DNA of 64,000 nt, from contig NBAY01000075.1 of NCBI GenBank assembly GCA_002794775.1, positions 142,378-206,377 on the forward strand. The letters are read 5' to 3'. The stretch is from Porodaedalea pini (lineage: Eukaryota > Basidiomycota > Agaricomycetes > Hymenochaetales > Hymenochaetaceae). The position numbers were made by a program, and so were the translations under genes. Numbering within the stretch: position 1 is the stretch's first letter; each line of letters opens with the position of its first letter. Under the pieces are notes generated by a model. That model worked only from the letters and a program-made list of their open reading frames with translations. It did no database searches and had not been told where the DNA came from. This document shows, one piece after another, positions 10,256 through 57,161 of this stretch.

Positions 10256-10280
10256 CTCTATAAATTTCCTACACACCATC

Positions 10281-20407: not shown

Positions 20408-20585
20408 CTTGAGGTAGTGGGCCATTAGGATGGCAAGCTACGATTACTGTTTACTGAATACTAAATAATTCACTAATGAGAATAATGTTTTAGTATAATT
20501 TGCAAGCTTTAATCCTCTCATATAAAATGAAAGACACAGAAAACAGTAATCATAGCTTGCCATCCTAATGGCCCACTGCCTCAAG
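20408..20585. repeat. 178-bp terminal unit, copy 1 (MITE-like)
   Basis: Terminal inverted repeats of about 43 bp starting CTTGAGGTAGTGGGCC flank an AT-rich core. Copies at 37251-37428 and 39359-39536 are also 178 bp; 18430-18472 is the right end only. No target duplication is visible at any copy. Each lies at the 3' end of a mosaic. Confidence 0.85.
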
Positions 20586-20673
20586 TAATAAAACTAAAAT
20601 ATCCAGTGACACATTAGCCAGTACATCATATTTAGGGAAAAGAAATAGTGACAATGATAGTGAAAGCTCTACC

Positions 20674-21591
20674 TTGAATACTCCAAGCAAGCAACATAAA
20701 GCAAGTGAATATAATCAAAACATTACAAGCTCATCACCTTTGGGACTAAGATGGGATTCAGTAAGTTATAGTTGTGCTTATGACTCTGTATTGCCTATTT
20801 TATTCAATTTATACATAGAAGACTATGAGAGGTGGTATAATATATATTCAAAGTATCAAATTAATTTGCATGATCATTTTCAGAGGGTAATGAATTCAAT
20901 AAGTAGTTTTGAAGAAGAAAGATATGCCATTTGTAACAAGCTTTTCAACCAGAACAGACATCAATTTCCATTAGGTCATAAATTAACAGCTGTAGCCTCT
21001 GTTGTGTAGAAATGCCTAGAAGCAAAAGAACCTATAATATATAAGCAAAGCCAGTGTATTCAATGTAATAGGTCCAAACAAAGTCTTTTATTATCCTCAT
21101 TTATTCCATGTTTTACAGAAGACTTTAATACAGCTCCTGAATAGTAGTTATTCAGCAGTCAATATAAAAACATCAATACATAGCCTTCTATTCAACAATG
21201 GCTTAACTATTACTTTGGTTCAATGTCAGTAACATGTAGACAATGTCAAATAGATTATACAGCTGACACCAATGTACAATCTCATATCAGTGAGTCAACA
21301 AATGTTGTAGCTGTGCAGTTGTATAATTATGAGATTATAATTGATCATGAGGTTGTTATAAAATGTACACCATGTTTGAAAAAATACAAATTGCGAGGTC
21401 TGATTTATGGTGGTAACAATCATCACTTCACTTGTAGAATAATAGATAAGTCTGGACTGGTCTGGTATAATGATGGTATAACCACTGGCAGAGTTTCAAA
21501 TGCAGAAAAGTATCTATCACAGTATAGTGATTATGAGCTTCATGGCGAAGGTAAAACTACAGCAGTCATTGCTCTATATGCTATTATTTAA
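20674..21591 (+). pseudogene. USP-like (peptidase C19) cysteine protease-like gene, AT-rich
   Basis: One frame is broken by TAG codons (21007, a tandem pair near 21141, and one near 21180). It carries a Cys box (S-C-A-Y-D-S-V-L-P-I-L-F-N), two C-x2-C pairs (C-I-Q-C and C-R-Q-C) as in the zinc finger of ubiquitin-specific proteases, and a His box (H-H-F-T-C-R-I-I-D, then W-Y-N-D-G). The base composition is far more AT-rich than the neighbouring captured genes, so it has a different origin, perhaps the transposon itself. It is opposite in strand to the other captured genes of mosaic A. The family call is tentative. Confidence 0.5.
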
Positions 21592-21624
21592 TGTACAACA
21601 TGCAGTGTAAAGGAGGAGGGATGG

Positions 21625-24235
21625 GGAGGTAGCACATCATCGCTCTGAGGAATAAGCACACGACTCATAGACAACATTCCAAGACCACCGAGTTCCTATA
21701 CGACAACAGTTCAGCAAGACGTGATATACATAAGAGCTGCGATGCTTACTTTGAGGATGTAGAAGACGACTGGAGGGAAACACAAAGGCACCTTACTGTT
21801 CAAGCCAATCTCAACACCGAGTCTGAATTTTGTTCTCAGCCTTCACCAAAGCATCAAGCAGCTCATTCGTGTGGATGACAGCCTCCTGATAATAAGTCAT
21901 CAGACCAATGATCACAGTGTTCCATTTGTTGACAATCTTGGAAAAGGTGGTAGAGCCTGAGCTCATGAGGACCTGGCGGATACGGTTGTTAAACTGTTGA
22001 ACACTTATGAAATTCTTCAGCATTACATATTCCATGGAAACTTTAATATTCTCACCTTCATCGGAGACGCGGAGGAAGGCTTGCGTAGTACGCTCCTTCG
22101 ACTGCTCGTTGGTCAAGTTCCACACCCCGTCCTTGAGTGACAACTGCTCTCCACTCATCGTCCGGATCTTCGGCAGAATGCACACCTCGAAGCCGCTCAT
22201 CGAGAAGAGTAGCTGAGGGTTGTTTTTAGAGTAGACACTAACAAACGGATCTTCCCATTCAATCGTCGTCAAAAAACGACGCAGGATCTGCTTCACGTTC
22301 CAGAACACAGCTCGACCTAGATTGACGTCGTGCTTGATCAAGCGCATACGGCAATCCCGCGGCCAACATCTTTCGTTGTTATACCCAATAACGTTGTTGT
22401 TTGTCGGATCTGGATTCTCGCTGAGGTAACATTGTATAAGGTCGTGTGATTCCTCGGCGGCGAAGCGAAATAAAATATGCAAACGATCAACACAACGAGA
22501 ATAGAGACAGACTGGATGGCGTGTCTCGGTGTCAGAATCACCGTACTGCAGGAAATTGTCGGGCAGTCGTGGGGGACCCGCCATTTCACTTGCACGTTGC
22601 AGTTTAATCTTTTCGTAGACCTTCAAAAGTACGGTCTCCATCATCACTACGCATTCGCCCTCGCTCGTCTCCCAGATGTCCGTCAAGTTATTGATACCCT
22701 GGCACCACTTGTACACCAAAAGGGGAGGAGGTTCGGTGTCCGCACTTGTCAGCCTCAAAGAAGAAGAACTGGTCAAAATATGTGTCTGTAATCTTCTCAA
22801 CGGGTTCGATGTCGTAGCAAGGGATGAGCTTGTCATATGTGTCGAAGAACTCAATGCCTGCCTCTTTGAAGGCTTGCTGAGTGAGCAAGAGACGCTTGAT
22901 CCTAGACAGACCTGCATGCGAATCAATTAGCTACACCCTACGATCAATTAGAAAAGGAACATACGTTCGTGTGGATTGTCATACGCCTGCTCAATGAGAG
23001 CAAGCTCCTCACGCTGAGATTCGTTAAGACGACCTTTGACGCTGTATGCCTCTTTCAACTTCTCGAGAGCCAACACGAGCAACTTCGTGTCATGCTTGTA
23101 CGAAGGGGAACTGTATGGAAACATCAGTGAGAGCTACTGAAAGACGTATTTAATTGAATCTTACGGGAATGGGATGGGAGCAAATTTCCGACTCTCAAGC
23201 CAGTGGACCATCGATGTGTAGATCGCAACGGCCTCCTCAGCACTAAGGTAAGGTCCATCTTTGAGGTAAGCATGCCGACGCTCCTGCTCAGCTTTCAAGT
23301 ACAGTCGAGTAAGACGTCCCAAGTTCTTCTTGACCACAGCCTTGTCGACAGCCGCACCATGCCTGATACGCTCGCGATTGTAGTGCGCAATCGAGCACCA
23401 CCAGTCCGCCTTGCTCTTGATGTACCACAAGGTAGTGTTCTCGATTGCAGTTGGCATTCCGGGACCTTCCATGGAACTGTAGAATAACGCTTAGTACGCA
23501 AAGTCCAGATTCAACCAAACGACGTACTGTTTGCCTTTCCAGCAGTGCCACGCTTCCAACAAGTCCTGCAAGATAGTCTTCGCCTTGTTCTGCTTGATCG
23601 ACTCCGGCATCATATCAAGAATATTGTGCATCATGGCAGTGCGTAATTCCAAGTCATAGTGCGATTCGACACGCTGCTTCGTGACCGTCTTTGCGATGCC
23701 CTTGCTGTTGCGACCCTCGAACTGACACACAAGCAAGTTTCTGAGCCAGTGCTGAAGCAACGGTACAATTCCACGCATGACGAAGAGCCACCCTCGCCAA
23801 CCTGGAGCCCCAACCCCACAGCCTGGTCCCTTACCAACAGGTCCCGCATTGAAGCAATAATAGATCAGATGCTTGTGATCTTTGCACATCCGGACCTACG
23901 CATAAGCTTGTACTTGTAATGGTACATGTCGGTGAGCGCGCCGATATGTGCGAAGATATACTGCAATGCATCCGCCAGTTGGAAGGCATCCACATTGCTA
24001 AGCCGGAATTGGACGTGCGCATCGACAACGAGCTTTGTGAGGCGAAGAATTTCACGGCACATACGGAATGCATTTCCAAAGCGAGACTTTTTGCGTTCCT
24101 TCGTCGTAAGCGTCTTCACCGGCTTCAGATTCATGTTGTAATCGAGATGAAGGTAATTCAAGTTCTAGAAGGATTGGAAGTCAGAATGATGTAAAACAGC
24201 TTTCCCAAGGATCATACCTTGCAATGGATGAGCGG
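21625..24235 (-). pseudogene. prp8: Prp8 (U5 snRNP spliceosome scaffold) gene piece, with introns
   Basis: On the minus strand from about 24235, near-canonical Prp8 sequence runs from L-N-Y-L-H-L-D-Y-N (24160) through [30 protein letters not shown] and N-K-I-Q-T-R to L-I-P-Q-S near 21650. That covers only part of the N-terminal half of a ~2300-residue protein. Introns remain, for example 24202 to about 24150 and one ending at 23108. About 60 codons are missing in frame near 22612 (V-Y-E-K-I joined to L-Q-R-A-S-E). Presence of introns shows genomic DNA was captured. It cannot be functional. Confidence 0.85.
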
Positions 24236-25880
24236 CATGCAAGAGAAGCGTTCTCGGCAGCCTCCTTTATTAAAAGATCATCGCCGCGCACAACGACGAG
24301 GCGGTCTGCCAGCTGCTGCACCTGCTCAATGATGTAAACCGGCTCCAGATCGCTCGGGTTCCTGCGGTCGATATGGAAAGTCTGCGTTGCGTTCTGCACG
24401 ATACGGTTCAGGTTGACAAGAAGATAGTGGGCAGTGGAATTGTCGCGGCCCGGGAAAATGATTTCACGGAGCAACTTACGATCCTCATGAAGACGGTCAT
24501 ATTCCTCGTCAAGTTTTTGCTGGAGCTCGAGGGATGAGTCATCGATACTGACTTGCAAAACACCAGTGAAAAAAAGTGACGTCGACCCGATAGCGATGTT
24601 CGAACTCGCGATCATTGCTACCGAACGTTTTTGATCGTTTGCCGTTCAATAAGAGCACCGTCCATACCATCCTCGCCATACACGAATTGGATCAGGTCAC
24701 CCAGTGAGTTTCGTACAGTCCCATCGTAGCAGACAGCCACTTCCTCGAGTGCCTTTACAAGTCGACGATGAATGTAACCAGTCTCGGCCGTCTTGACAGC
24801 GCACCTCTGGGCTGAAGTCATCCTTCGTAAAGTGAGGTAGTGTGCGATGTCTGAAGCCGAACGGGATTCGCTTCCCTTCAACGGACTGCTGACCAACACA
24901 GACGGTCATGCGAGATGTTAATGAACGAACCCTTCGAACCCGCGACAACCATCTGTTTGACACCGGAGTGGTCACACGCCAAGTTGAGCTACTCGATTCT
25001 CGAACGACTCGCGAATAGTCATACCCGGTGCAGCTTTCAGACAGTCGTCAGATGCATCTTCAATGGCCTGCACGACATTCTGCTTCCGCATCTTGATCTG
25101 CTCCGTGATGTACGCCATTGTCTTCTTATCCGCGACTGTATCACCAATGCCTATACTGAATCCATTGTGGAACAGCCAGTAATTAACAATCTGCTGGAGA
25201 CCACTGAACAGCGTACGAGTCGCTTCGGGACCTTTTTCGTGGAAGACGACGTGGATAAGACCGCCTTGCGACGCTCCAACCGTCTTTTTCTCCACGATAC
25301 CAAAGACGATCTCGCCATTTTCAATGATCATGCCATCGTCGAAAACGGGGCTCGAAGATTTCGGATCAGGCGAGCGATATATGTTTATTCCGCGAGGAAT
25401 CGTCATGCTAAGAATCTGTTTGCCCGTCCATAATGGCTTCCGCTTCAAGATCGCCGGCGTCGGAATCGTGCCGTCCCAGTCCGGCACCCACAGCAGGATG
25501 TTTTGCACCTGCACCCAGTCGAGGAAGCTATCCCGCAGAGTGAATTTCCGGACACCGCACGACATGTCCTGTACGATGCCCATAACAGGTTTGTTCACCT
25601 GCGGCGAGATGATCTGCTTTGCAACCTATGCAATTTGACTGAGTTCGGCTCTCGTCTCTTCGCTCTGAGGAACGCTAGACGGAGCTGAGAAAGAGATGTA
25701 AGGCTAATCTTAAAAGTGACATACTGCATGTTCATCTCATCGCCATCGAAATCGGCATCATACGGTGGAGTGACGGAAAGATTTAGACGAAAGGCTAAAA
25801 TACACTAATCAACGACCATACAATGAGTTAAAGGTGGATAAACACGTACTAGAGTAAAGCATAAGTCGCACGCGATGCCT
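24236..25880 (-). pseudogene. rpb1: Rpb1 (RNA polymerase II largest subunit) gene piece, copy A
   Basis: Minus-strand sequence begins at H-R-V-R-L-M and includes the catalytic metal-A motif [10 protein letters not shown] (about 25740), [32 protein letters not shown] and G-R-D-N-S. It ends at A-E-N-A-S, where the Prp8 piece begins. The clamp-proximal N-terminus and the CTD are absent. Small deletions shift the frame between 24900 and 25000. The piece is preceded by the Ser-rich end of the BTB gene, as in mosaic C. Confidence 0.87.
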
Positions 25881-27060
25881 CGCCGGAGAAGCCTTCTTCT
25901 CATCAACTGCAGGGGACTTCTTCGTCGCTGTCTTTTTCCCTCCAGCTGTTGCCACAGATGCAGCTGATCGAATTGAATTCGCCGACGGTGACTTTCGAAT
26001 GACGGGCGTCTTGTTCGCCGTTGTTTTCGTAGATACTGTAGTAGTGGGCGACACCTTCCATGTGCGCGATGCCGCGCTTACCGTACTGATTGGCACCGCA
26101 CTCGTTTCAGAGACGCGATGCGGCCGTCCTTTCAGTAGCGCAGGCGCTGACATTTTAGGATATATTGAGGTTCCGGTGCTGCGCATCGAGGTCATTGACG
26201 TGGTCGAGACTTTCCTCGACCGAGTAACAGAGTCGCGTGGGTCATGTTCTCGCGACGCGTCTTGAATGTAGACTCGCGTGTTGAAGCCCCGCTCCTGCTG
26301 CTGGACATTGACACATCCGAGAGCGAGGATGTCGGTCGCGAGGGCGGATGAGGTGGACAAAGAGTACCTTGCTGGCCTGCAGTGGCGGCATTTGTGTGGA
26401 TAGTCGATGCATGTGAACGAGTAGATGAAACAGAAGCGGCGACAGACTTTGGTCTTTGCATGGAGACGATGTTCGGTAGTTTTACACTCGTGACGCCTGC
26501 GTCTTTCCCAGTTGTGCGCGGAGAACGAGAAGCTACACCGGGCCGTCGAGAAACCACGGAAGATGATGCGGTAGAGCGCGCAAGGGACGAGGTCGAGCCC
26601 TTTAGTCGCGGGCTTTCTTGTTCGTCACCCTCCCCATCCACGTCCATACCTGAAGTATACGAGAGTGCACTCGGTGCCCTATGGACGCTTGGACTCGTGC
26701 TACGCGGGGTGGACGGCGCAAACTTCGAGTCTGGCCGGCTCTTCTTACGCTCACGCTCCGTTGCAGTCGTAAGGCGCAATGACGTTCGGCTAGTCGTCGA
26801 CGCAACGCTGCGCGCTACGCTCCGGACAGATGCGCTAGACGAGGTGACAGCCGCATTCATGCGAGCAAGGTTCTTGTTCAGCACGCTCGTACGAAGCGAA
26901 TGCGACGTGCTCATGCTATCGCGCTCAGTAGTGTCTTCAACCCTGATGCCGCAGAAGACGACAATGCAGCAGATAAGATGGAAGATGCAGATGCCAGAGA
27001 CGGCTTTGCTGTCATCGGCATGCTGCTCTGCGTTGCTTTGATGGAGCCGAACAACTGTAC
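25881..27060 (-). pseudogene. BTB gene, Ser/Thr/Arg-rich C-terminal region, copy A
   Basis: A low-complexity, strongly basic Ser/Thr-rich frame is recognisable from about 26930 (T-T-E-R-D-S-M-S-T-S-H-S) to S-P-A-R-H-R at the Rpb1 junction, with a frameshift near 26240. In mosaic C the same segment follows BTB and helical exons through ordinary introns, so I treat it as the C-terminus of one host gene. No enzymatic domain is visible. Confidence 0.6.
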
Positions 27061-27129
27061 AGGCCACGACTCCGATTTAGCAAGAGGTGGGGAAGGCGCC
27101 GGCGAGGAGGAGAACGAGAAATAGCGCGA

Positions 27130-27557
27130 GCATAAACGATAGCTAGCATTTGTTAGTCTCAAGGACAGGTGGTAGGTTCTGTGCTCGTGCTCACCTTTAT
27201 GTCCCCAAACCTCCGAGTCCGCGTTGCTGCCTTCGTCCATCGCGTCCTCATCCAGTAGATCCCAGGCGACATCTGGGAAGCGATCTTTCATGCGATGAAA
27301 GAGCAATTGGAGGTCCTCTTGCCATGCTGTCGTCGACCTCTTTGTTGCCTCGAGCAGTGCGGGTGGGCAGGCAGGCAGCTATGACGAGACGGCTACCATG
27401 AGAAGCAGTGATGTAGTGTGATTTTAAAAAAAGCAGAGCAAGCCCGAGAGAAAAGTGAAGGAGACAAATCAGAGTGTGCCTCCTGCTGAGGATCACATGA
27501 GGGAGTGAAGCGAGTGTCTTTGCTGCAGCAAAACAGACTCATCGACGACCGCAAGGG
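27130..27557 (-). pseudogene. BTB gene, first coding exon region, copy A
   Basis: The minus strand encodes E-D-L-Q-L-L-F-H-R-M-K-D and D-S-E-V-W-G-H-K-G, then a typical small intron from GTGAGCAC (27196) with branch point CTAAC and acceptor at about 27145. The interior of the gene is deleted; the sequence jumps to the Ser-rich region. It is the inverted counterpart of 29151-29487. Confidence 0.6.
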
Positions 27558-27919
27558 TGGAGATCACATGTTGGCACTGTCGTCAACTTTGCTTTCGACC
27601 GATTTTTAATTCAACCGGGCCACTTTATTTTACAAAAAATACATAGGCAGATATCAAATTGTCTGAAGTTTTTTTACATGGTTCAAGCTTGAGATTTGGA
27701 TGGTTTAATAAAATTAAATATGCCAATGAAGAAAGTGAGCACTGTACAGCCACAAAAGCAGTGAACCCTTCATAGCCACAGCCCGAATTTAGCAGAAAAA
27801 GGGTCCAAAATTAACATATATGGTATGCCATCAGCTTATAAAAGCTGACAAAAACCCAAATCGGGCTCCCTAACTTTGCCCACAACAAAAGACGATACTT
27901 CGTAAACTCAGTAATCGTA
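27558..27919 (-). repeat. Mosaic 5' module, copy A
   Basis: About 360 bp, reading on the minus strand from TACGATTACTGAGTTTACG to GACAGTGCCAACATGTGATC. It is shared with 28790-29150, 52884-53244 and (split by a Helitron) 44889-45119 plus 46443-46573. No protein is evident. It could hold a promoter, since the captured genes always follow it in sense orientation; that is inference. Confidence 0.85.
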
Positions 27920-28789: not shown

Positions 28790-29150
28790 TACGATTACTG
28801 AGTTTACGAAGTATCGTCTTTTGTTGTGGGCAAAGTTAGGGAGCCCGATTTGGGTTTTTGTCAGCTTTTATAAGCTGATGGCATACCATATATGTTAATT
28901 TTAGACCCCTTTTCTGCTAAATTGAGCAGTGGCGATGAAGTCATTCACTGCTTTTGTGGCTGTACAGTGCTCACTTTTTTCATTGACATATTTAATTTTA
29001 TTCAACTATCCAAATCTCAAGCTTGAGGCATGTAAAAAAACTTCAGACAAATCTCTATCTGTCTATGTATTTTTTGTAAAATAAAGTGGCCTGGTTGAAT
29101 TAAAAATGGATCGAAAGCAGAGTTGACGACAGTGCCAACATGATCTCCAA
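28790..29150 (+). repeat. Mosaic 5' module, copy B
   Basis: TACGATTACTGAGTTTACG to AACATGATCTCCAACC. It is inverted relative to 27558-27919, forming the core of a large palindrome around the copia piece. Confidence 0.85.
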
Positions 29151-29487
29151 CCTCAGTGGGAGGCACTGTCGACGAGTCTGTCTCCTTCACCTTTCTCTTG
29201 GGATTTCTCTGCTTTTTTCTTTATCACACTACATCACTGCTTGTCTTGGTAGCCGTCCCGTCACAGCTGCCTGCCTGCCCACCTGCACTGCTCGAGGCAA
29301 CAAAGAGGTCAACAACAGCATGGCAAGAGGACCTCCAATTGCTCTTTCATCGCGCAAAGGATTGCTTCCCAGACGACGTCTGGGATCTAATGGATGAGGA
29401 CGCGATGGACAAAGGCCGCAACGCGGACTCGGAGGTTTGGGGACATAAAGGTGAGCACAAGCGCAGAACCTACCACCTGTCCTTGAG
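29151..29487 (+). pseudogene. BTB gene, first coding exon and start of intron, copy B
   Basis: It encodes T-A-W-Q-E-D-L-Q-L-L-F-H-R-A-K-D and D-S-E-V-W-G-H-K-G, then donor GTGAGCAC at 29450. The intron is interrupted by the TIR element at 29496-30405 and resumes with branch point and acceptor at 30406-30420. Confidence 0.6.
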
Positions 29488-29495
29488 ACTAACAA

Positions 29496-30405
29496 TGGGG
29501 GTCGGCATTGCTCGAATGAAAAGTGTGCATTCCCATGGCCCTTGGCATGTCATGCCGCACACCAATCTGTGTCGAAGGAAAACTCTTGTTTCTGTAGCTA
29601 CGCCTTCTCCTTCCTCAGCTCAAAAATAAATAAGTAAAAATCTTTAAATAACATTATTGGAGTATACATTGAATTACCCAAGACAGTTTTTAAAGAAGTG
29701 AAAAATTAATCAAGATACTGTTAACTTACTGGGAGAATCACTTGTTTCTCAGTGAATAAATTTTTTTAGAAAAATTCCTCACGGACAATTCAAGTTTGTC
29801 ATGAGAAAAATGGGTTGCACAAGAAAAATCAGTGAATTTGGGGATGATGTATTGTCAACAGATTCTGAAAGATGAGGGGCCAGAAGGTAGAAAACAGCGC
29901 TCACGTGATGGCATATAGGAATGTGTCGTTGTGTTATCTCAGTTCTGCTCCGAAGTATGTGCCAAAGTACTAAGGAAAACACATCTTAATGTAATTTTAT
30001 GGTATATAAATGCATATATTTAACTCAAAGTGTGATTTTGAGCATAAAGATGTCAATAGAACTACTTATTGCATTAGGTAAGCATGATAGGTCGGTTTGT
30101 ACTACTAGCACTAGTAATTCTGTAGATAATTCTTAGTGCCACTGCTGGGCAAATAAGCAGTGGCAGAAGCACATAATTGACTGTTTGACCTCAAAAAATT
30201 TCCCTTGGGGCTTCTAGTTATACATTATACAACTATATTTCAACAGATTCTGTCCGGGGAACCACCGGCAGAATTTCTAGCATTTCTATGCGTGCTTGCA
30301 AAACTTTCGACAATCGTGTTGCCACAAATTTCTATATTAGGAGCGTATTTACACTCCGATTGAAAAAAAAGAGGCACGCTTTTCTAACGTGCAATGCCGA
30401 TCCCC
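29496..30405. mobile_element. Non-autonomous TIR DNA transposon in the BTB gene intron
   Basis: Ends TGGGGGTCGGCATTGC and GCAATGCCGATCCCC(A) are inverted repeats with one mismatch. Flanks ACTAACAA (29488-29495) and ACTAACAA (30406-30413) are the target duplication (7 or 8 bp, because the terminal A is ambiguous). The uninterrupted intron is seen on the minus strand at 27145-27196. The AT-rich interior holds no recognisable gene. Target size suggests a superfamily with 7-9 bp duplications, but none is assigned. Confidence 0.88.
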
Positions 30406-30420
30406 ACTAACAAATGCTAG

Positions 30421-31468
30421 CTATCATTTATGCTCGTGCACTACTCAGTTCCCAGGCGCACTATTTCTCGTTCCGCCCGACACCTATCGTGTCCCCACTT
30501 CCTTTCGCTGCCTCTCCGACATTGTCACTTCCAATGCCGACAACATCTGCACACTCTCTCAACCTTGGCGTTGAGTTCCCCTACCGCCTCAATGTGCTCC
30601 ACTTCACCTTCCCAATTCTGGCCTATCTCCCCTGCGCCCTCTGTAATCGGCTCCCTCACGCGCATATCTCTCAACCATAATCCCGTGTTATTCACCAACG
30701 AGCTCGAGTATCTCTATACAGGAAAGGGATTTGGGGATGTGTTTGAGTTTTTGTTCGATGCGAATGAGGAGGGCCGGGAAGGCGACGCCAATGTGGAAGA
30801 GGCACGCGTCGACAAGCTTCGGGAGGACCTTGTGTTCGTGTGGAGGTCTCGTCTGTATTCTGACGTTCGCATTGAACTACACAGCGATATGCCAACAATG
30901 GGTGCTCCTTCCAATGAAGAAGAGACGACCGCCGTCTTCTGCTCACATCGATCTTTTGTTCTTGTAACGCGTGCACCGTATTTCTACGATCAACTCATCA
31001 CCTATGGTCTCAAGAATACCCCTGGCCCCGGCGAGCTCACGACCCTTTGCCTTCCCTCACCTCCCTTTGCTCCTCCAGCGCTGCACTTTTCCTTAGGATA
31101 CTCATACACCGAAACGCTCAGCTTCAGCGACCGTTCATATGACTTGGACACCGCTTTCGCTATCCTGTGCTCCGCGAACTATCTTCAATTGCAGACGCTC
31201 CATGACAAGGTGCAGGCACGCATCGTGCAGGAGATGCTCCATGGGCTCTTCCACGCTTTCCTCGAATTTGCTGAGTATGAACGTATCACTGGAGGTCGCT
31301 GGGGCACAGGTGGGTCTCGCTGCCGCCAGTGTGCACGTCGCGCACCGCATACGCTCGCGTTTTCCGTGCGTCCAGACGTGCAGAACACATACCTTGAGCG
31401 TGGCGCGCGGCGCGCCCTTGTTGGTCTTTTCGGAGAGGGCTGGTGCATGAAGTGGTTACCACTCTTTC
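30421..31468 (+). pseudogene. BTB/POZ-domain gene piece, copy B
   Basis: After the acceptor at 30420 the sequence encodes S-L-N-H-N-P-V-L-F-T-N-E-L-E-Y-L-Y-T-G, then a BTB-like core: Y-S-D-V-R-I-E-L, C-S-H-R-S-F-V-L-V-T-R-A-P-Y-F, L-G-Y-S-Y-T-E-T-L-S-F and S-Y-D-L-D-T-A-F-A-I-L-C-S-A-N-Y-L-Q. BTB domains mediate dimerisation and often Cul3 binding. A Cys-rich C-R-Q-C-A-R-R follows. It is cut after G-E-G-W-C (31468) and joined to a P4-ATPase piece. Frameshifts lie near 30600-30690. Confidence 0.65.
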
Positions 31469-32235
31469 GCGTAAGTCCATTGGCGTCGTCGATTGGAATG
31501 GGCGGGCACCTGGTACGGCACGTTGGGAACGCACACTCTCGAATCGGAGACATTGTTCTGTTGCGCAATAACGATCAAGTGCCGGCCGACATCATTGTCC
31601 TTTCTACTTCGGAAGAGGATGGCTTATGCTATTTGGAGACGAAGAACCTGGATGGCGAAACGAATCTGAAGCCTCATCGGTCATTGAAGGCGACATCATC
31701 TCTGCAGAGCGAGGAAGACATTGAGCATGCAAGTTTCGTCCTGGACTCCGAACCGCCGCACGCTAATCTGTACCTTTACAATGGCGTGCTGAGATACCGC
31801 GAGCACGAGGCGGGGGCAGAGAAAGTCGAGCCGGCGACCATCAACGAGATGCTATTCCGTGGATGTTCAATGCGAAACACAACGTGGATTATTGGCTTAG
31901 TTGCATTCACTGGCGCGGACATGAAGATTATGTTGAACAGTGGGAGCACGCCTAGTAAACGGAGCAAAATCGAACGGGAGACGAACTTTTCTGATTCTTA
32001 TGTGTCTTGCGACGGGCATTGCTAATGGCGTTATGGACAGTAAGTCGGATACTAGTGCACATTTCTTTGAACAGGGTAGCGATCCGTCGAGCTCTTCGGC
32101 CGTTTATGCAATCGTTACTTTCGTGTGAGTGTCTTTATGGTTCCCTCTGCGATCGCTTACTGATCTTTGACTGTAGGTCTTGCTTGATTGCATTTCAGAA
32201 CATCGTTCCGAGCTCTCTTTACATCTCCATCGAAA
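31469..32235 (+). pseudogene. P4-ATPase (aminophospholipid flippase) gene piece
   Basis: It encodes the actuator region of a Drs2/Dnf-type flippase: G-D-I-V-L-L-R-N-N-D-Q-V-P-A-D-I, then the hallmark D-G-E-T-N-L-K, then A-T-I-N-E-M-L-F-R-G-C. Transmembrane-like sequence follows (A-I-V-T-F-V, intron 32124 to about 32175, then L-I-A-F-Q-N-I-V-P-S-S-L-Y-I-S-I-E-I-V-K-T). A deletion near 31990 breaks the frame. The phosphorylation motif is not included. Upstream it is fused to the BTB piece, downstream to Not1. Confidence 0.82.
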
Positions 32236-32565: not shown

Positions 32566-32574
32566 CTGTTCTGC

Positions 32575-34985: not shown

Positions 34986-36312
34986 TTGAAGGGAAGTGAA
35001 TCCCGTTTGGCTTCGGGCATCGCACACTACCTCACTTTACGGAGGATGACTTCAGCCCAGAGGCGCGCGGTTTCGTTGAGAACTCGTATCTTCGTGGATT
35101 AACTCCACAAGAGTTTTTCTTCCACGCTATGGCTGGTCGCGAAGGTTTGATCGATACCGCTGTCAAGATGGCCGAGACTGGTTACATTCAGCGTCGACTT
35201 GTAAAGGCACTCGAAGACGTGGCTGTCTGCTACGACGGGACTGTACGAAACTCACTGGACGGTGCTTTTATTGAACGGCAAACGATCAAAACGTTCGGTA
35301 TCAGTGATCGTGAGTTCGAACATCGCTATCGGGTCGACGTCACTGACCCAAAGGGTGGATTCCTTCCTGGTGTTTTGCAAATCGGTATCGACGACTCATC
35401 CCTCGAGCTCCGGCAAAAACTCGATGAGGAATACGACCGTCTTCATGAGGATCGTAACTTGCTACATGAGTTCATTTTCCCGGGCCGTGACAATTCCGCT
35501 GCCCACTATCTTCCTGTCAACCTGAACCGCATCGTGCAGAACGCAACGCAGATTTTCTATATCGACCACAGAAAACCGAGCGATCTGGAGCCGGTTTACA
35601 TCATTGAGCAGGTGCAGCAGCTCGCAGACCGCCTCATCGTTGTGCGCGGCGATGATCTTTTAATAAAGGAAGCTGCCGAGAACGCTTCTGTTGCATTCCG
35701 CATGCTCCTTCGGGCGACTTTTGCCGCGTGTCCAGTCCTAGAGGAGTTCCATCTCAACAGAGAAGCGTTTGACTGGGTCTTGGGCGAGGTGGAGACAAAG
35801 TTCAACCAGTCGGTCGCTCATCCGGGCGAGATGTGCGGCATACTTGCTGCCCAGTCGATTGGTGAGCCGGCGACGCAGATGATACTAAATACCTTCCATG
35901 ACGCTGGTGTTTGGAGTAAAAACGTCACGCTCGGTGTGCCGCGTCTTAAAGAAATCATCAACATCGCCGTGAATATCAAGACTCCGTGTACCTGGACCCA
36001 GAAATTGCTGCTGTCGACACGAGGGCCAAGTCGGTGCAAACAGAACTTGTGCACACATCGCTGCGTACCGTTACAGCGACGGTCGAGATCTACTACGATC
36101 CTGATTCAAGTACGACGATCATTGAGGATGATAAGGAGTTTGTTGATGCATTCTTCTCCATCTCCGACGAGGAAATTGAGTCGGGTCCTCATCTTCAGTC
36201 GCCATGGCTACTTCATCTTGAGCTCGATCGCTTGAAGATGCTTGACAGGAAACTTTCGATGAACTACGTTGCTGGCCGTATCGCGGAAAGCTTGGCCGTT
36301 GCCGAAAATGCC
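34986..36312 (+). pseudogene. rpb1: Rpb1 gene piece, copy B
   Basis: From V-E-G-K (with a TGA) it runs through [18 protein letters not shown], the bridge-helix/trigger-loop area ([12 protein letters not shown]) and [11 protein letters not shown] to A-G-R-I-A-E-S. That is the C-terminal core of the polymerase, without the CTD. About 30 codons are missing after Y-D-G-T-V-R-N-S-L. Splice or deletion scars shift the frame near 35985. It is followed at once by the start codon of the CAP-Gly gene, the same junction as in mosaic C. Confidence 0.88.
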
Positions 36313-37006
36313 ATCTAAGGAAAATATTGACCCTGAAGATCCTCCCAATACAGGCAGTACATTGACGATTAAAGGGGAGGGGAAGGGGAAAGGGCGGATG
36401 GATGCCATCATCGCAGACGACAGATCTCTGCGATCGAGCGACAACGGATCAAATACAACTCTCGCTACATTGCGGCACAAGGAATCGAATGACACCATTA
36501 CCCTCAATCGAGTGTCTGCGGGGGAGACGGACATGCTGCAACCCCGTGGCGCTACATTGGACATCGGCATTCCATGTATCATTACTTCAAGGCAGAAGCG
36601 GTTCCGTGCGTTTGCCCGTTATATCGGCGAGGTTGAGGGTGAGAGCGGGCCATGGGTCGGTGTCGAGATGCCCGTGGGTGATGCTTGGGCAGACGATCAG
36701 CTTGAGGGCCGCCAGTGGAATGACGGCTCATGGGGTGGCGTGCGCTACTTTGGCATCGGAATGGGGTGACGACGAATGCATGACCAGCCGGCAATGCGTT
36801 GATTTGACGAATAACTGTGGAACTAGTGTTATTAGTGGCTGGAAGGGCACGAAGCGCGAGGGGGAGCAGCTCAGCGTTGACCGCAAGAAGTGTTTCCGTA
36901 GCAGTTCGCCGTCAGTGTCGGACATGTCGAACGCGGAGTATCGAGGTCTCTTTGTGAGGCCACAGCAGGTGCTGTATGTTGTAGATGCTGTCGGTTCGGG
37001 CTTGTG
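36313..37006 (+). pseudogene. CAP-Gly domain gene piece, copy B
   Basis: It begins M-P-S-K-E-N-I-D-P-E-D-P-P, a plausible native start, then a Lys/Gly-rich linker. The CAP-Gly-like core follows: Y-I-G-E-V-E-G-E-S-G-P-W-V-G-V-E, then N-D-G-S-W-G-G-V-R-Y-F. An 11-bp deletion near 36762 shifts the frame; the following conserved stretch (G-L-F-V-R-P-Q-Q-V-L-Y-V-V-D-A-V-G-S) ends at TGA 37004-37006. CAP-Gly domains bind tubulin or EB-type C-termini. The specific protein is not recognised. Confidence 0.65.
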
Positions 37007-37250
37007 AATCTTGGAACATATTTAAGTTCGGATTCCTGCCCTTTTTCTTTTTCTTTCTTTCTTTCTTTAACCCTACTCCCATGTTTAGTCACTCCTTGCT
37101 CTGGACAGATGCCCTTATCACTGAAATCACTTGTTGGCATGTTCATATTCCTCTCTTGTCTACTCAATCATATCACTCTGGATTCTCGAATTGCACCTTT
37201 TGGAGAAAATTTTAATCAGTTTTTGAATGCTGCTGGTTTTTTAGTTAGTA

Positions 37251-37428
37251 CTTGAGGTAGTGGGCCATTAGGATGGCAAGCTACAATTACTGTTTACTGA
37301 ATACTAAATAATTCACTAATGAGAATAATATTTTAGTATAATTTGCAAGCTTTAGTCCTCTCATATAAAATGAAAGACACAGAAAACAGTAATTGTAGCT
37401 TGCCATCCCAATGGCCCACTACCTCAAG
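37251..37428. repeat. 178-bp terminal unit, copy 2
   Basis: At the 3' end of mosaic B; it replaces the CAP-Gly 3' region after TTAGTTAGTA, which at 18400 and 39655 continues further. Confidence 0.85.
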
Positions 37429-39358: not shown

Positions 39359-39536
39359 CTTGAGGTAGTGGGCCATTGGGATGGCAAGCTACAATTACTG
39401 TTTACTGAATACTAAATAATTCACTAATGAGAATAATGTTTTAGTATAACTTTCAAGCTTTAGTCTTCTCATATAAAATGAAAGATACAGAAAACAGTAA
39501 TCGTAGCTTGCCATCCCAATGGCCCACTACCTCAAG
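39359..39536. repeat. 178-bp terminal unit, copy 3
   Basis: It separates the copia remnant (left) from the 3' region of mosaic C (right). Confidence 0.85.
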
Positions 39537-39889
39537 TTGAAATGCAATGCACAACTCATCTGTGTGCTAACATACTCCAAAATGATTTTTAACTTATTGC
39601 ATGAGACACAAGAATGCTGTTTGTACAGAAACTCTACACAAATGTACTAACTAAAAAACCGACAGCATTCAAAAGCTGACTAAAAAAAGTCTCCAAAAGG
39701 TGCAATTCAAGAATCCAGAGCAATCCGATTGAGTAGATAAGAGAGGAATATGAACATGCCAACAAGTGATTTCGGTGATGAGGGCATCTGCCCAGAGCAA
39801 GGAGTGACTAAACATGGGAGTAGGGTAAAAGAAAGAAAGAAAGAAAAAGAAAAGGGGCAGGAATCTGAACTTAAATATGTTCCAAGGTT

Positions 39890-40623
39890 CACAAGCCCGA
39901 ACCGACAGCATCTACAACATACAGCACCTGCTGTGGCCTCACAAAGAGACCTCGATACTCCGCGTTCGACACGTCCGACACCGACAGCGACGCGCTACGG
40001 AAACACTTCTTGCGGTCAACGCTGAGCTGCTCCCCCTCACTCTTCGTGCCCTTCCAGCCACTAATAACGCTAGTGCCATAGTTATTCGTCACATCAATGC
40101 GTTGCCGGCAGGTCATGCATTCGTCGTCGCCCCATTCTGATGCCAAAGTCCCGACGTCAAAGTAGCGCACGCCACCCCATGAGCCGTCATTCCACTGGTG
40201 GCCCTCGAGCTGATCGTCTGCCTAAGCATCGCCCACAGGCACCTCGACACCGACCCATGGCCCGCTCTCACCCTCAATCTCGCCGATATAATGGGCAAAC
40301 ACACGGAACCGCTTCCACTTTGAAGTAATGATACATGGAATGCCGATGTCCAATGTAGCACCATGGGGTTCCAGCATGACCGTCTCGCCTGCAGACACCG
40401 TCTCCCCCACAGGCACTCGATTGAGGGTAATGGTGTCATTCGATTCCTTGTGCCGCAATGTAGCGAGAGTTGTATTTGATCCGTTGTCGCTCGATCGCAG
40501 AGATCTGTCGTCTGCGATGATGGCATCCGCCCGCCCTTTCCCCTTCCCCTTCCCTTTAATCGTCAATGTACTGCCTGTATTGGGAGGATCTTCAAAGTTG
40601 ATATTTTCCTTAGATGGCATTTT
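39890..40623 (-). pseudogene. CAP-Gly domain gene piece, copy C
   Basis: M-P-S-K-E-N starts at about 40623 on the minus strand. G-P-W-V-G-V-E-V-P-V-G-D-A is followed by TAG at 40222-40224, where copies B and E have TGG (Trp). The rest of the domain (Q-W-N-D-G-S-W-G-G-V-R-Y-F-D-V-G) is readable to about 40150, and the tail to TGA near 39889. It has an 18-bp in-frame repeat (V-G-E-T-V-S-A-G-E-T) not in copy B. Confidence 0.65.
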
Positions 40624-42605
40624 TGGCAATGGCAAAGCTTTCCGCGATACGGCCAGCAACGTAGTTCATCGTAAGTTTCCTGTCAAGCATCTTCGAGCGA
40701 CCGAGCTCAAGACAAAGTAGCCATGGCGACTGAAGATGAAGACCCAACTCAGTTTCCTCGTCGGACTTGGCGAAGAATGCATCAACAAACTCCTTATCCT
40801 CCTCAATGATCGTCGGACTTGAATCAGGATCATGGTGGATCTCGACCGCTGCTGTAACGGTACGCAGCGATGTGTACGCAAGTTCTGTTTGCACCGACTT
40901 GGCCCTTGTGTCGACAGCAGCAATTTCTGGGTCCAGGTATATTGTGAGCGACGGAGTCTTGATATTCGCGGCGACGTTAACACCGAACGTGACATTTTTA
41001 CTCGAAACACCAGCGTAATGGAAGGTATTTAGTGTCATCTGCGTCGCCGGCTCACGAATCGACTGGGCAGCGAGTGTGCCGCACATCTTGCCCGGATGAG
41101 CGACCGACTGGTTGAACTTCGTCTCCATCTCGCCCAATACTCAGTCAAATGCTTCTTTGTTGAGATGGAACTCTAGGACTGGACGCGCGACAAAAGTCGC
41201 CCGAAGGTGCATGCGGAATGCAACAGAAGCGTTCTCGGCAGCCTCCTTTATTAAAAGATCATCGCCGCGCACAATGATGAGGCGGTCTGCCAGTTGCTGC
41301 ACCTGCTCAATGATGTAAACCGGCTCCAGATCGCTCGGTTTTCTGTGGTCGATATAGAAAATCTGCGTTGCGTTCTGCACGATGCGGTTCAGGTTGACAG
41401 GAAGATAGTGGGCAGCGGAACTGTCACGGCCCGGGAAAATGAATTCACGGAGCAATTTACGATCCTCATGAAGACGGTCGTATTCCTCGTCGAGTCTTTG
41501 CCGGAGCTCGAGGGATGAGTCGTCGATACCGACTTGCAAAACACCAGGAAGGAATCCACCCTTCGGGTCAGTGATGTCAACCCGATAGCGATGTTCGAAC
41601 TTGCGATCATTGATACCGAACGTTTTGATCGTTTGCCGTTCAATAAAAGCACCGTCCATACCATCCTCGCCATACACGAATTGGATCAGTCACCAGAGAG
41701 TTTCGTACAGTCCCGTCGTAGCAGACAGTCACGTCTTCGAGTGCCTTTACAAGTCTACGCTGAATGTAACCAGTCTCGCCCGTCTTGACAGCGGTATCGA
41801 TCAAACCTTCGCGACCAGCCATAGCGTGGAAGAAAAACTGTTGCGGAGTTAATCCGCGAAGATACGAGTTCTCAATGAAGCCGCGCGCCTCTGGGCTGAA
41901 GTCGTCCTTCGTAAAGTGAGGTGGTGTGCGATGCCTGAAGCCAAACGGGATTTGCTTCCCTTCAACGGCCTGCTGACCAACACAGACGGACATCTGCGAG
42001 ACGTTAATGAACGAACCCTTCGAACCCGCGACAACCATCTCTTTGACATTGTTGTCCTCCTTCACGTTCTCTGCGTACTGACCGGAGTGGTCGCGCGCCA
42101 AGTTGAGCTCGCGTTCGACTCAACTCTCGAACGACTCGCGAATAGTCATACCCGGTGCAGCTTTCAGACGGTCGTTAGATGCATCTTCTATGGCCTGCAC
42201 GACATTCTGCTTCCACATCTTGATCTGATCCGTGATGTACGCCATTGTCTTCATCCGCGACCGTATCACCAATGCCTATACTGAATCCATTGTGGAACAG
42301 CCAGTGATTAACGATCTGCTGGAGACCAGTGAACAGCGTACGAGTCGCCTCGGGACCTTTTTCGTGAAAGTCGACGTGGATAAGACCGCCTTGCGACGCT
42401 CCAACCGTCTTCTTCTCCACGATACCAAAGATGATCTTAAAAGTGACATACTTCATGTTCATCTCATCGCCATCGAAATTGGCGTTATACGGTGGAGTGA
42501 CGGAAAGATTTAGACGAGAGGCTAAAATACACCAATCAGCGACGATACAATGAGTTAAAGGTGGATAAACACGTACTGGAGTAAGGCATAAGTCGCACGC
42601 GATGC
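40624..42605 (-). pseudogene. rpb1: Rpb1 gene piece, copy C (longest)
   Basis: It starts at H-R-V-R-L-M-P-Y-S with a retained small intron (about 42575-42521), then [20 protein letters not shown]. The first aspartate of the metal-A triad is Asn here. About 110 codons present in copy A (N-K-P-V-M-G onward) are deleted before [11 protein letters not shown]. It continues through [37 protein letters not shown] and S-P-W-L-L to A-G-R-I-A-E-S. Frameshifts are present near 41690, 41150 and 42260. Confidence 0.88.
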
Positions 42606-44888
42606 CTCGCCGGAGAAAGCTTCTTCTCATCAAATGCAGGGGACTTCTTCGTCACTGTCTTCTTCCCTCCTGCTGTTGCCACAGATGCAGTTGATCGAAT
42701 TGAATTCGCCGATGGTGACTTTCGAATGACGGACGTCTTGTTCGCTGTTGTTTTCGTAGATACTGTAGTAATGGGCGACACCTTCCGTGTGCGCGATGCC
42801 GCGTTTACTGTACTAATTGGCACCGCACTTGTTTCAGAGACGCGACATGGCCGTCCTTTCCGTAGTGCAGGCACCGGCGTTTGCGGAGATCTTGAGGTTC
42901 CGGTGCTGCACATCGAGGTCGATGACGTGGTCAAGACTTTCCTCGACCGAGTAACAGAGTCCCGCAGAGTCATATTCTCACGAGGCGTCTTGAATGTAGA
43001 CTTGCGTGTTGAAGCCCCGCTCCTGCTGCTGGACATTGACACATTCGAGAGCGAGGATGTCGGTCGCGAGGGCGGATGAGGTGGACGAAGAGTACCTTGC
43101 TGGCCTGCAGTGGCGGCATTTCTGCGGATAGTCGATGCATGTGAACGAGTAGATGAAACAGAAGCGGCGACAGATTTTGGTCTTTGCACGGAGACGACGT
43201 TCAGTAGTTTTACACTCGTGACACTCGCGGTGTCGCCTGTGTCTTTCCCAGTTGTGTGTGGAGAGCGAGAAGCTACACCGGGCCATCGAGAAACCACGGA
43301 AGATGACGCGGTAGAGCGCGCAAGGGACGAGGTCGAGCCCTTTAGTCGCAGGCTTTCTTGTTCGTCACGCTCTCCATCCACGTCCATACCTGAATTATAC
43401 GAGAGCGCACTCGGTGCCCTATGGACGCTTGGACTCGTGCTACGCGGGTGGACGGCACAAACTTCGAGTGTGGCTGGCTCTCCTTACGTTCACACTCCGT
43501 CGCAGTCGTAAGGCGCAATGACGTTCGGCTAGTCGTCGACGCAACGCTGCACGCTACACTCCGGACAGATGTGCTAGACGAGGTGACAGCTGTGTTCCCG
43601 CGAGCAAGGTTCTTGTTCAACACGCTTGTACGAAGCGAATGCGACGTGCTCATGCTATCGCGCTCAGTGGTGTCTTCGATCCTGCTGAGAGTAGGGCGAA
43701 GGCCTGCTCGCGTAAGCGGCCCACGCACCGTGTTGGAGTTGCTCATCGTCGGCGTTAGAAGATATTCGACCGGGATGTTGATTTCTGTAGATCGTTATTA
43801 GCAAAGTCCTTACCCTTGAGAAGCGCGGACCTACCATTGCTGATCTCCTTGATCGCCCAACTTTCCAGCGCATCGAAGCCACTCTCGTTCCGGATACCGA
43901 CCCAGCGCCTTCGAAGCAGATCCATACGAGTCTGTTCAACTTGCACACGGATGTGGGAAATGCTTGATAAGAGGGTCTCGCTTGGTTCCGTAGGGTGCTG
44001 ATGAAGAAGAATTGCGGAAAGGAGAGTCTGCGAAGGAATGAGCACAATAATAAACCCGATTATAATTTAATACTCACCTGACAGAGCATGCCAGCATTCG
44101 ACTCCGCCATGCCCCTCCGCACAGCCTCCATAACCCACTCAACGCGCTCCCCGTCCTCAAACCGTCCTAGCCCATCATTCTCCATAATTTCGACCCACTT
44201 GCGCTCATTGAAACTTCTCCGCCTCGTTGCAAAGCAGAGCATCCACAAACCCCCTTGCTGTCATAACCATTTCTTTCACACCCTCTACCCAAGCGTCTTG
44301 CACAGAGTTGAGCTTCACTGAGGCCGCATGCGCAGCGAAGAGCAAAGGAAATGCGTTCTGCGGGAGTGCATGCTTCTTCAGGCCAGTCATCAACCCGTCA
44401 GTGGGAGTGCAGCGAAGTCCGGAGTGCACCAGCCCTCTCCGAAAAGACCAACAAGGGCGCGCCGCGCGCCACGCTTAAGGTATGTATTCTGCACGTCTGG
44501 ACGCAGGGAAAAGACGAGCGTACGCGGTGCACGACGTGCACACTGGCGGCAGCAACACCCACCTGTGCCCCAGCGGCCTCCAATGATGCGTTCATACCCA
44601 GCAAATTCGAGGAAAGCGTGGAAGAGCCCATGGAGCATCTCCTGCACGAGGCGTGCCTGCATCTTGTCATGGAGCGTTTGCAATTGAAGATAGTTTGCGG
44701 AGCACAGGATAGTGAAAGCGGTGTCCAAGTCATATGAATGGTTGCTGAAGCTGAGCATGCCGGTGTATAAGTATTCTAAGGTAAAGTGCAGTGCTGGAGG
44801 AGTGAAGGGAGGCGAGGGAAGGCGAAGGTTCGTGAGCTCGCCGGGGGCAAGGGTACTCGTCGACGACCACAAGGGTGCCTCCCACTGG
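42606..44888 (-). pseudogene. BTB gene, near-continuous copy C (BTB to Ser-rich C-terminus)
   Basis: The minus strand reads BTB C-terminal part (S-Y-D-L-D-T-A-F-T-I-L-C-S-A-N-Y-L-Q), C-R-Q-C-A-R-R, then T-G-L-K-K-H-A-L-P-Q-N-A-F-P-L-L-F-A-A-H-A. A helical region (V-E-W-V-M-E-A-V-R-R-G-M), a small intron (44080-44030) and L-L-S-A-I-L-L-H-Q-H-P-T-E follow. A second intron from GTAGGTCC (43847) leads into M-S-N-S-N-T-V-R-G and the Ser/Thr-rich tail. It shows that the pieces in mosaics A and B come from one host gene. Its N-terminus (before G-E-L-T) is deleted. Function unknown beyond the BTB domain. Confidence 0.6.
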
Positions 44889-45119
44889 TTGGAGATCACA
44901 TGTTGGCACTGTCGTCAACTTTGCTTTCGACCGATTTTTAATTCAACCAGGCCACTCTATTTCACAAAAAATACATAGACAGATATCAAATTGTCTGAAG
45001 TTTTTTTACATGCTTCAAGCTAGTGATTTGGATGGTTGAATAAAATTAAATATGTCAATGAAGAAACTGAGCACTGTACAGCCACAAAAGCTGTGTATCG
45101 CCTCATAGCCACTGCTCAA
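44889..45119 (-). repeat. Mosaic 5' module, copy C, inner part
   Basis: It matches the inner ~230 bp of the 5' module and ends at CTGCTCAA, where the Helitron is inserted. The outer part is at 46443-46573. Confidence 0.85.
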
Positions 45120-46442
45120 TCTTAATATACAAACGCAACCCCCTACTTTTGACACAGCCACATGCTGACTAAATTCGGACTTTCAATGTTTTTGATGCTT
45201 CTTTTTTCCTTCTTTAGTTGTCACCCACATGCTCCTGCTCCGGCCAGCTCCGAAATTTTTGATGGCTCAAAGCGGCAATATTGCAGATCATCACATGATG
45301 TCTGCACATGTGCACACATCCGTGAGCAGACCGCTCTGTAGGCTCAATCAACTCATTTCCCCTATGAAAAAAATTGTAAAAAATATGAAAAAAAAAAATT
45401 TAATTAAATCATGCTCTTCTCTTGAAATTTTGATGGCTAAAAGTGGTAACTCCAAAGCAGCAGCATGCAAATCATCTACAATCAATTTTATACTCTAAGC
45501 TTAAACAACTCATTCCTCACATGAAAAAGTTAGGAAAAATGCAGAAAAAAACAAGCCAATTAGAAAAATATTCTGTGATCTTCTCCATGTGTATTATAAA
45601 ATAAATTTCAGTAGAAAATCAACCAATTGGAGTCCATTGAGAATTACTCTCAGAATATATAAATCATTGGCCTGGCTCATGCCAGAGTATACATAGCACA
45701 ACTCAGTATAAGTGCATATAAGCTTTGGATGAGTTGGGCAGTGAAGAGAATGTGAAAAGAGCATGAACTGAACATAATGTGTCAGACTCCAAAGGTCTGG
45801 AGGCTCCCACTGAGTCTCAGACTTAGACTCCTCATAATTGTAGTACAGCTACATGGTTGTGTTTCAGAGTTTGTGTCTTGGAATGTCAGACACTCAATAC
45901 ATCAGAGTCAAGTCATGATGTATAGGAAGTCAGCAACATGTTAGAAGTAGTGAGAATACTCTAGCAGGCCTACACCTATAGCCTTTTATGAATATAATAT
46001 AAGGTGTCCTAACATAGTATCTATATTGTATAAAGAATATCCTTTCTATTTTAAATAAAGACATGAGAAGCAGGTATTATGCACTATGTCTCTCCATTGA
46101 AAGAGACTTACTCTATCTTCAGGTTCTCAACAACCAATATTGTACTTAGTGAGGTTTTGTTGTAAATAGAATGTTATACAATGAAAATTCAGATTGCTTT
46201 CAAGCATGTGTATGTGAGATATATAGTTTTGCAATTGAAGAATCATGTGAACTAAGATGAACCATTGTTCTAAGAGCTTAGACTGATGGCCAGCAAGGAA
46301 CTTTAAATAAGTATAGCTTTTAGAGTGAGAAATTGCATTAATTAAATCTGAAGAAACAAAAAAACTCAGATTAAGCAATGCCTAAAAAACTCGGATTGAT
46401 GGCCAGCGGAGTTCCCGGCGAAGCCGGGAACTCCAGGGCTAG
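45120..46442 (+). mobile_element. Non-autonomous Helitron (1.3 kb)
   Basis: 5' end TCTTAATATAC, 3' end CTAG (46439-46442), inserted between A and T of the 5' module with no target duplication. The uninterrupted site CTCAATTTAGTAG is at 53109-53121. A perfect 11-bp hairpin (GAGTTCCCGGC, loop GAA, GCCGGGAACTC; 46409-46433) lies 5 nt before CTAG, the standard Helitron 3' signature. The interior is AT-rich and holds no Rep/helicase and no recognised host gene. Confidence 0.93.
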
Positions 46443-46573
46443 TTTAGCAGAAATGGGGTCCAAAATTAACATATATGGTATGCCATCAGCTTATGAAGCT
46501 GACAAAAACCCAAATTGGGGACTTTATCTTTGCCCACAACAAAAGACGATACTTCGTAAACTCAGTAATCGTA
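46443..46573 (-). repeat. Mosaic 5' module, copy C, outer part
   Basis: Ends ACTCAGTAATCGTA at 46573; the flank beyond (ATATTTTTGGGG) is not copia. Confidence 0.82.
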
Positions 46574-57150: not shown

Positions 57151-57161
57151 GGTTATGAGCC
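57151..57161 (+). promoter_or_regulatory. Primer-binding site, complementary to the initiator tRNA-Met anticodon arm
   Basis: GGTTATGAGCC directly follows the LTR and is the complement of GGCUCAUAACC, the anticodon stem-loop of eukaryotic initiator tRNA-Met (CAU anticodon). Priming from such a half-tRNA is known for Drosophila copia and yeast Ty5. Confidence 0.8.

Follow-up and report, generated by a model that had tools for sequence, protein, structure and literature searches.

A 64,000-nucleotide stretch of the Porodaedalea pini genome (contig NBAY01000075.1, positions 142,378 to 206,377; the window) contains five related mosaic elements, A to E, that are very probably complete or partial copies of one family of non-canonical, Helitron2/Helentron-like Helitrons and that carry fragments of several unrelated core host genes. 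The initial annotation, made from the sequence of the window, described these five structures as mosaic mobile elements and compared their multi-gene capture and module shuffling with those of maize Helitrons. Both points are upheld: A, B and C are complete, with exact ends; D, represented by its 5′ end, and E, represented by its 3′ end, are partial; and the genome contains many dispersed near-identical copies as well as a clean empty site. The further statement that the ends fit neither Helitrons nor Pack-type elements is mistaken, as they match those of non-canonical Helitrons (asymmetric repeat, hairpins and T target), a class known in fungi. Since this 53-Mb fungal genome holds 121 5′ ends and near-identical copies, and both the parent genes and the precise breakpoints have been identified, the capture, deletion and reshuffling of host genes can be traced step by step. 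Coordinates are window positions unless a contig (C plus number) or locus (L plus number) is named, and the strand of each element is the 5′ to 3′ direction of its termini. Ends and homologies in the window were established by comparing it with itself and by reading the junction sequences.

Termini and target sites

The complete elements are A (20408..27919, minus strand, 7512 bp), B (28790..37428, plus strand, 8639 bp) and C (39359..46573, minus strand, 7215 bp). In the orientation of the termini, the 5′ terminus is TACGATTACTGAGTTTACGAAG preceded by a T (in A at 27898..27919, minus strand), and the 3′ end of A is CAGTAATCGTAGCTTGCCATCCTAATGGCCCACTACCTCAAG followed by a T. The 11-bp sequence TACGATTACTG stands at the 5′ end and recurs as an inverted copy at a distance of 31 nt from the 3′ end (a perfect match in A and 10/11 in B, C and E), forming an asymmetric terminal inverted repeat; the terminal pair of the family is TACGATTACTG at the 5′ side and CTACCTCAAG at the 3′ side. 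Small hairpins occur at both ends: the 5′ end of B forms a stem, and GCCAT-CCTA-ATGGC lies in the 3′ end of E. The 5′ module of about 360 bp that the initial annotation regarded as shared is continuous in A (27554-27920), B (28789-29153) and D (52882-53246) but split in two in C (44887-45112 and 46443-46574), and the 3′ terminus attributed to A, B, C and E is a 178-bp unit in the first three and a single arm of that unit in E.

In the sequence examined, 39 of 40 5′ ends and 55 of 56 3′ arms are flanked by T (at most 3 mismatches; copies in tandem are counted). At the 39 5′ ends, this T is preceded by G in 23, A in 12, T in 4 and C in none, and the fortieth end has TG. Given that C makes up 24.5% of the bases preceding T in the same sequence, the absence of C has a probability of 1.8e-5 if the ends are independent. 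Writing the insertion point as a caret, the target is thus (A/G/T)^T. Element A has a clean empty site in three uninterrupted copia homologues (window 61.5-61.8 kb and loci on C5 and C26), and the element at C5:1415773-1422094 has its uninterrupted counterpart in an RPB1 piece on C54. At both empty sites the sequence lacks one T relative to the joined flanks, which corresponds either to a 1-bp duplication or to a T owned by the element, and neither shows a long target duplication.

Copies across the genome

Pattern searches of the 53.3-Mb assembly (at most 2 mismatches, with reversed patterns as control) found the 5′ terminus at 121 places and the 3′ arm at 200, against none for either control. 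End pairing covers the 98 of 121 5′ ends and 100 of 200 arms that were listed: 42 of the 98 5′ ends have a 3′ arm no more than 9.5 kb downstream, compared with 17 of 98 upstream, and the 7-8 kb bin holds 18 downstream arms versus 1 upstream. Fifty of the 98 5′ ends pair with an arm, and the resulting lengths (about 7.72 kb, 6.21 kb and 7.87-7.91 kb) recur across contigs. As an observation apart, three tandem 5′ termini with a 23-bp period occur at C25:550275-550342 (L039), reminiscent of the multiple 5′ ends of the FoHelis discussed below.

The gene-bearing blocks are likewise dispersed. The RPB1 block of B was scored at 40 places of 125 candidates (87-100% identity, one of them the parent gene), its combined BTB and P4-ATPase block at 40 of 104, its PRP8 block at 40 of 99 (one of them the likely parent) and the CNOT1 block at all 14 candidates, 3 of which are shorter than 130 bases; the blocks are therefore not confined to this locus, whereas confinement to it is what the initial annotation had named as refuting its reading. 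Ten contigs (C75 itself, C77, C7, C133, C106, C171, C143, C26, C41 and C1) match the RPB1 block at 99-100%; on the same ten, identity is 99-100% for the BTB/P4-ATPase block and 97-100% for the PRP8 block, so that all three tested blocks of B are found at ten places with 97-100% identity. The flanks of B and of its relatives on C1 and C7 are mutually unlike.

The Rep-helicase partner

Helitron_like_N (PF14214) gave 10 matches at 8 places. The Rep portion contains DUF6570 and Helitron_like_N and the helicase is PIF1 (Pfam); HLH and YVTDY are present, and among the 120 of 223 Rep relatives listed, those with an organism name are from basidiomycetes. The Rep and helicase coding sequence in L079/L080 (C54), L081 (C79) and L082 (C62) is antisense to the termini and continues into a body that matches A from 20582-20586. 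Element A itself retains a C-terminal Rep-helicase remnant (20586..21638, plus strand, antisense to the termini, with an open reading frame (ORF) at 21223-21591) that is contiguous with the Rep-helicase sequence in those loci. A has the appearance of a copy from which Rep and helicase have been lost.

As found in L081, the 21223-21591 ORF is similar to the C-terminal end of P0001, which is a Rep-helicase 2275 residues long. By eye, this C-terminal region (L081 8036-9506; 21223-21591) looks like a cysteine protease, with YSCAYDS and NHFTCRI...WYNDG; the region is conserved in P0001, and the two ORFs tested matched no Pfam family at cut-off. Separately, the Rep-helicase gene of L079 contains, and has on either side of it, a repeat of roughly 850 bp (1521-2373 and 6349-8048) whose reverse complement is almost identical to itself, and related repeats occur in L083 and on C37 and C14, the last of which contains a junction of the 178-bp unit.

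Captured host genes

The gene labels of the initial annotation stand for Rpb1 (Pfam 1.1e-66, 4.6e-45 and 8.8e-45), Prp8 (Pfam 3.4e-46, 6.3e-34 and 1.5e-55), CAP-Gly, P4-ATPase and Not1. The BTB label is weak (19.1 bits in C, cut-off 20.5), and the Armadillo label was not verified, the ORFs at 32604-33212, 33242-33658 and 51379-51957 yielding no Pfam family. All verified pieces run in the sense direction of the termini, in the single orientation originally noted.

The RPB1 parent gene extends from C5:1012133 onward (L084), and the host RPB1 is 94% identical to that of Coniferiporia weirii, 93% to that of Pyrrhoderma noxium and 92% to that of Sanghuangporus vaninii, in keeping with a placement of the fungus in Hymenochaetales. 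The fragments in A (24232..25877, minus strand), C (40635..42604, minus strand) and B (34983..36293, plus strand) correspond to parental positions 2107-3903 with gaps, 2107-2277 plus 2672-4505, and 3146-3421 plus 3458-4505, respectively, at 90.9-95.7% identity. The junctions described as identical are confirmed at base level, since RPB1 starts at parental base 2107 in both A and C and ends at 4505 in both B and C. These common breakpoints argue that RPB1 was apparently captured once and that internal deletions and rearrangement then gave rise to A, B and C. Two RPB1 introns (GT...AG, identified by eye) are retained in A and the first of them also in C; RPB1 was therefore captured at the DNA level, and retro-capture is rejected for it.

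PRP8 has its likely parent on C12 (95%; L085), of which A spans 1352-4171 with gaps (21639..24233, minus strand; reverse complement of L085, 93-97%) and B spans 2403-3451 (33978..34985, plus strand). A break near 4171 recurs in L080 and L081, and PRP8 too was probably captured once. As the initial annotation observed, gene order differs, A having RPB1 then PRP8 and B having PRP8 then RPB1. PRP8 sequence also occurs on the far side of the Rep-helicase genes in L079 and L082, so both orders could derive from one long element via different deletions.

The remaining pieces in B (plus strand throughout) are a weakly labelled BTB-type piece (30430..31447, of which 31005-31447 is homologous to C 44425-44869), a DNF1-type P4-ATPase fragment identified by PDB match (31540..31992; 7drx, 3.5e-53, query residues 371-521; Pfam below cut-off), a Not1/CNOT1 piece (32247..32553; 86.7% to L081 1593-1900, overlapping a CNOT1_TTP_bind ORF), a module common to B and D (32737..33850, homologous to D 52508-51397; tested ORFs without Pfam match) and a CAP-Gly fragment (36269..36769; Pfam 3.1e-8). 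Element C carries the counterpart of the CAP-Gly piece of B (40222..40659, minus strand) and its own BTB-type piece (44390..44899, minus strand). A 531-residue open frame (30430-32025) fuses the BTB-type and P4-ATPase pieces of B and could encode a chimeric protein.

The 178-bp palindromic 3′ end

The 178-bp near-palindromic unit forms the 3′ end of A (20408..20585, minus strand), B (37251..37428, plus strand) and C (39359..39536, minus strand), and each of its arms carries one copy of the 3′ terminal signal, the two copies being opposed. The 50-bp arms of the A unit are 94% complementary, with a folding energy of -55.6 kcal/mol (z score -14.6; 0 of 200 shuffles as good). Since E has a single arm, the palindromic form probably represents a variant on a simpler end.

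For 26 distinct junctions of the unit with an uninterrupted homologue in the sequence examined (counted manually, with identical junctions of different copies merged and the first homologue taken), the site reads N^T, with G before the T in 13, A in 9, T in 3 and C in 1; the probability of at most one C is 0.006 if the ends are independent. The sole C-before-T junction lies at C15:4725-4970 (L072, L073), where one arm sits inside the spacer of another unit. The six inner junctions for which the 5′ end of the element is known have A (elements A and C), G (element B and those on C14 and C5) and T (C3) before the T. As these junctions read N^T with C rare, they look like old insertion sites of a 3′ end running in the opposite direction. 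On C77 and C79 an arm of the unit faces Rep-gene sequence at a site of the (A/G/T)^T type.

Two other readings of the unit were considered. The 178-bp unit cannot have inserted by itself, as a symmetric mini-element, at the 17 of 26 junctions where the homologue has G, T or C before the junction, because a T outside both arms requires an A there; at the 9 junctions with A, among them the inner junctions of elements A and C, solo insertion is possible. The unit of L081/L082 was also considered as the end of the Rep-bearing element, a candidate that was dropped as the unit looks like the end of another element facing Rep/Prp8.

We tentatively propose, at somewhat less than an even chance, that the 178-bp end is a double-headed, bidirectional and portable 3′ terminator that creates new chimeric elements. 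Members of the family presumably move by Rep-driven rolling-circle transposition, with the Rep-helicase supplied in trans; host genes were captured as DNA, in sense to the termini, and later altered by internal deletion and module rearrangement. Less surely, the palindrome might stop transposition arriving from both directions; one element lying in reverse within another would then donate a new 3′ end and yield truncated or chimeric elements at once. If the terminator is indeed bidirectional, any copy nested in reverse would convert the DNA around it, whether element or host, into a new mobile unit; gene capture and reshuffling would then be built into the terminus, which would explain maize-like shuffling of gene fragments in a fungus. 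The palindromic 3′ end suggests a testable explanation for gene shuffling in some Helitron lineages and its absence from others.

Three points weigh against this proposal. The junction alignments had to begin with the first flank base, a requirement that biases this position toward T but not the base before it; at 2 of the 26 junctions a further homologue shows another base before the T; and searches for the nested intermediates expected at junctions of the A and B types gave 0 matches at up to 3 mismatches. The alternative that the family is the same but that the 178-bp unit spreads by template switching or recombination, its arms having no bidirectional function, comes close to an even chance in our estimation. 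The absence of nested intermediates for the two junction types searched is in keeping with it, as are the 2-3 bp overlaps at the RPB1/PRP8 junctions of A and B, which are junctions of the body and not of the 178-bp unit. Template switching does not, however, predict that inner junctions and true insertions share the (A/G/T)^T rule, and the arms facing Rep-gene sequence on C77 and C79 are as expected after nested insertion.

Alternative assignments of the family

Whichever way the 178-bp unit spreads, the assignment of A to E to one Helitron2/Helentron-like family has to be weighed against several observations. The target is not strictly TT, and the flank statistics include tandem and duplicated copies, so that not all ends are independent. 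A two-sided empty site was found for 2 of 11 elements tested (0.29 Mb searched). Copia sequence flanks B solely on the 5′ side and C solely on the 3′ side, discordant flanks for which simple insertion does not account. The search for an autonomous partner proposed in the initial annotation was successful in finding Rep/PIF1 sequence contiguous with the element body but yielded no intact Rep-helicase gene in the 4 copies read (L079, L081, L082 and L083; of 8 places), each of which is split over several frames or carries repeat inserts; nor was a complete autonomous element seen, the 3′ end of L079/L080 (C54) lying beyond the sequence examined.

A canonical Helitron1 would share with this family the Rep and PIF1 helicase and the lack of a long target duplication, yet the defining features of that type (5′ TC, 3′ CTRR and an A^T target) are absent here: the ends are TACGATTACTG and CTACCTCAAG and the target is G^T, A^T or T^T, which makes this assignment highly improbable. 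An account without transposition, in which a mosaic pseudogene block in repeat-rich DNA was copied by ordinary segmental duplication, would accommodate the discordant flanks of B and C, the 99.3% identity over 150 bp between the 5′ flanks of C and of C38:16755, and the flank shared by C5:4698 and C5:1463682. Against it stand the exact common ends, the T in 39/40 and 55/56 flanks, the directional spacing of the ends, the two clean empty sites and the near-identical copies with unrelated flanks; the empty site of A largely refutes it, and we give it hardly any credence. Least credible of all are cut-and-paste Pack-type elements (MULE or CACTA) with the 178-bp palindrome as a foldback end, which would fit the gene-fragment content and the 50-bp inverted repeat but not a long inverted repeat confined to one of two differing ends, two empty sites without multi-base target duplication, or Rep and PIF1 helicase contiguous with the body; the long terminal inverted repeats at both ends and multi-base target site duplications of Pack-MULE and Pack-CACTA elements are absent here.

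Comparison with known Helitrons

Gene-capturing Helitrons of maize carry several host gene pieces per element, in shuffled order, between canonical ends, and are elements of plants. Non-canonical Helitrons are known in fungi as the FoHelis of Fusarium oxysporum (PMC5148889), so that the class to which the present family very likely belongs is a named one, although the initial annotation knew of no named fungal family of this kind; its remark holds to the extent that core-gene capture on this scale was not found described in the literature consulted. Like the family in P. pini, FoHelis have asymmetric terminal inverted repeats and end hairpins (at one or both ends), non-autonomous deletion derivatives and, in some copies, multiple 5′ termini, and FoHeli4 and FoHeli5 have the Rep gene in the opposite orientation (PMC5148889). 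They differ in their terminal sequences and in that their repeated ends are short 5′ pieces, whereas here the repeated end is a 178-bp inverted double 3′ end. For FoHelis, 27 putative captures were reported, mostly of hypothetical proteins, and an important role for capture was not evident in that account, which places frequent Helitron gene capture chiefly in maize (PMC5148889). Self-insertion, including reverse self-insertion, was proposed there for composite FoHelis and for the reversal of the Rep gene (PMC5148889), the closest published idea we found to the nested reverse insertions proposed above.

Helentrons and the related HINEs (DINE-1) resemble the present family in their subterminal inverted repeats, short 3′ stem-loop and TT-type insertion; their non-autonomous copies outnumber the partner, and occasional gene pieces are carried, such as histone pieces in Culex (PMC4067079). 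Helentrons are named for an endonuclease domain (PMC4067079); among the Pfam matches of the ORFs tested here, which come from broken Rep-helicase copies, there was no endonuclease family. One difference is that a single element here combines pieces of several core genes. Among basidiomycetes, HELPO1 and HELPO2 of Pleurotus ostreatus are RepHel elements, and HELPO1 copies carry one to four extra genes; no tendency of Pleurotus Helitrons toward host gene capture was reported (PMC4289320), whereas here the host parents and the breakpoints of the captured pieces are identified. Among the papers listed by our literature search, whose coverage left out most subscription papers, none was seen to describe fungal Helitrons that take up core host genes on a pervasive scale, and one names both Hymenochaetales and Helitron.

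Partial elements and neighbouring repeats in the window

Element D (51345..53244, minus strand) is a partial copy with a 5′ end alone, which lies at 53244 (1 mismatch); homology begins at 51397, the left limit being that of the initial annotation. Element E (17629..18472, plus strand) comprises a CAP-Gly piece and the single-arm 3′ end at 18472, with homology from 17625 and a left limit from the same source. The idea that D and C make up one composite element was dropped, because comparison by eye showed the 5′ flank of D to be unlike the copia that borders C on its 3′ side.

The flanks of B and C (28740-28789, 37429-38206, 39310-39358 and 46574-46873) contain copia on one side of each element, the 3′ flank of C being copia and its 5′ flank not; the latter is found again on C38, with the 5′ terminus at the same place. 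Positions 1-16934 of the window hold three Ty3/gypsy-type copies in a row, assigned to that type by eye from their ORFs, of which 1-4424 and 5832-10255 are 99.9% identical and the third is about 82% alike. A copia element at 56855-62867 has terminal repeats that are 96% alike and an uninterrupted frame of 1471 residues (58138-62553), and further copies of it flank A, the 5′ side of B and the 3′ side of C.

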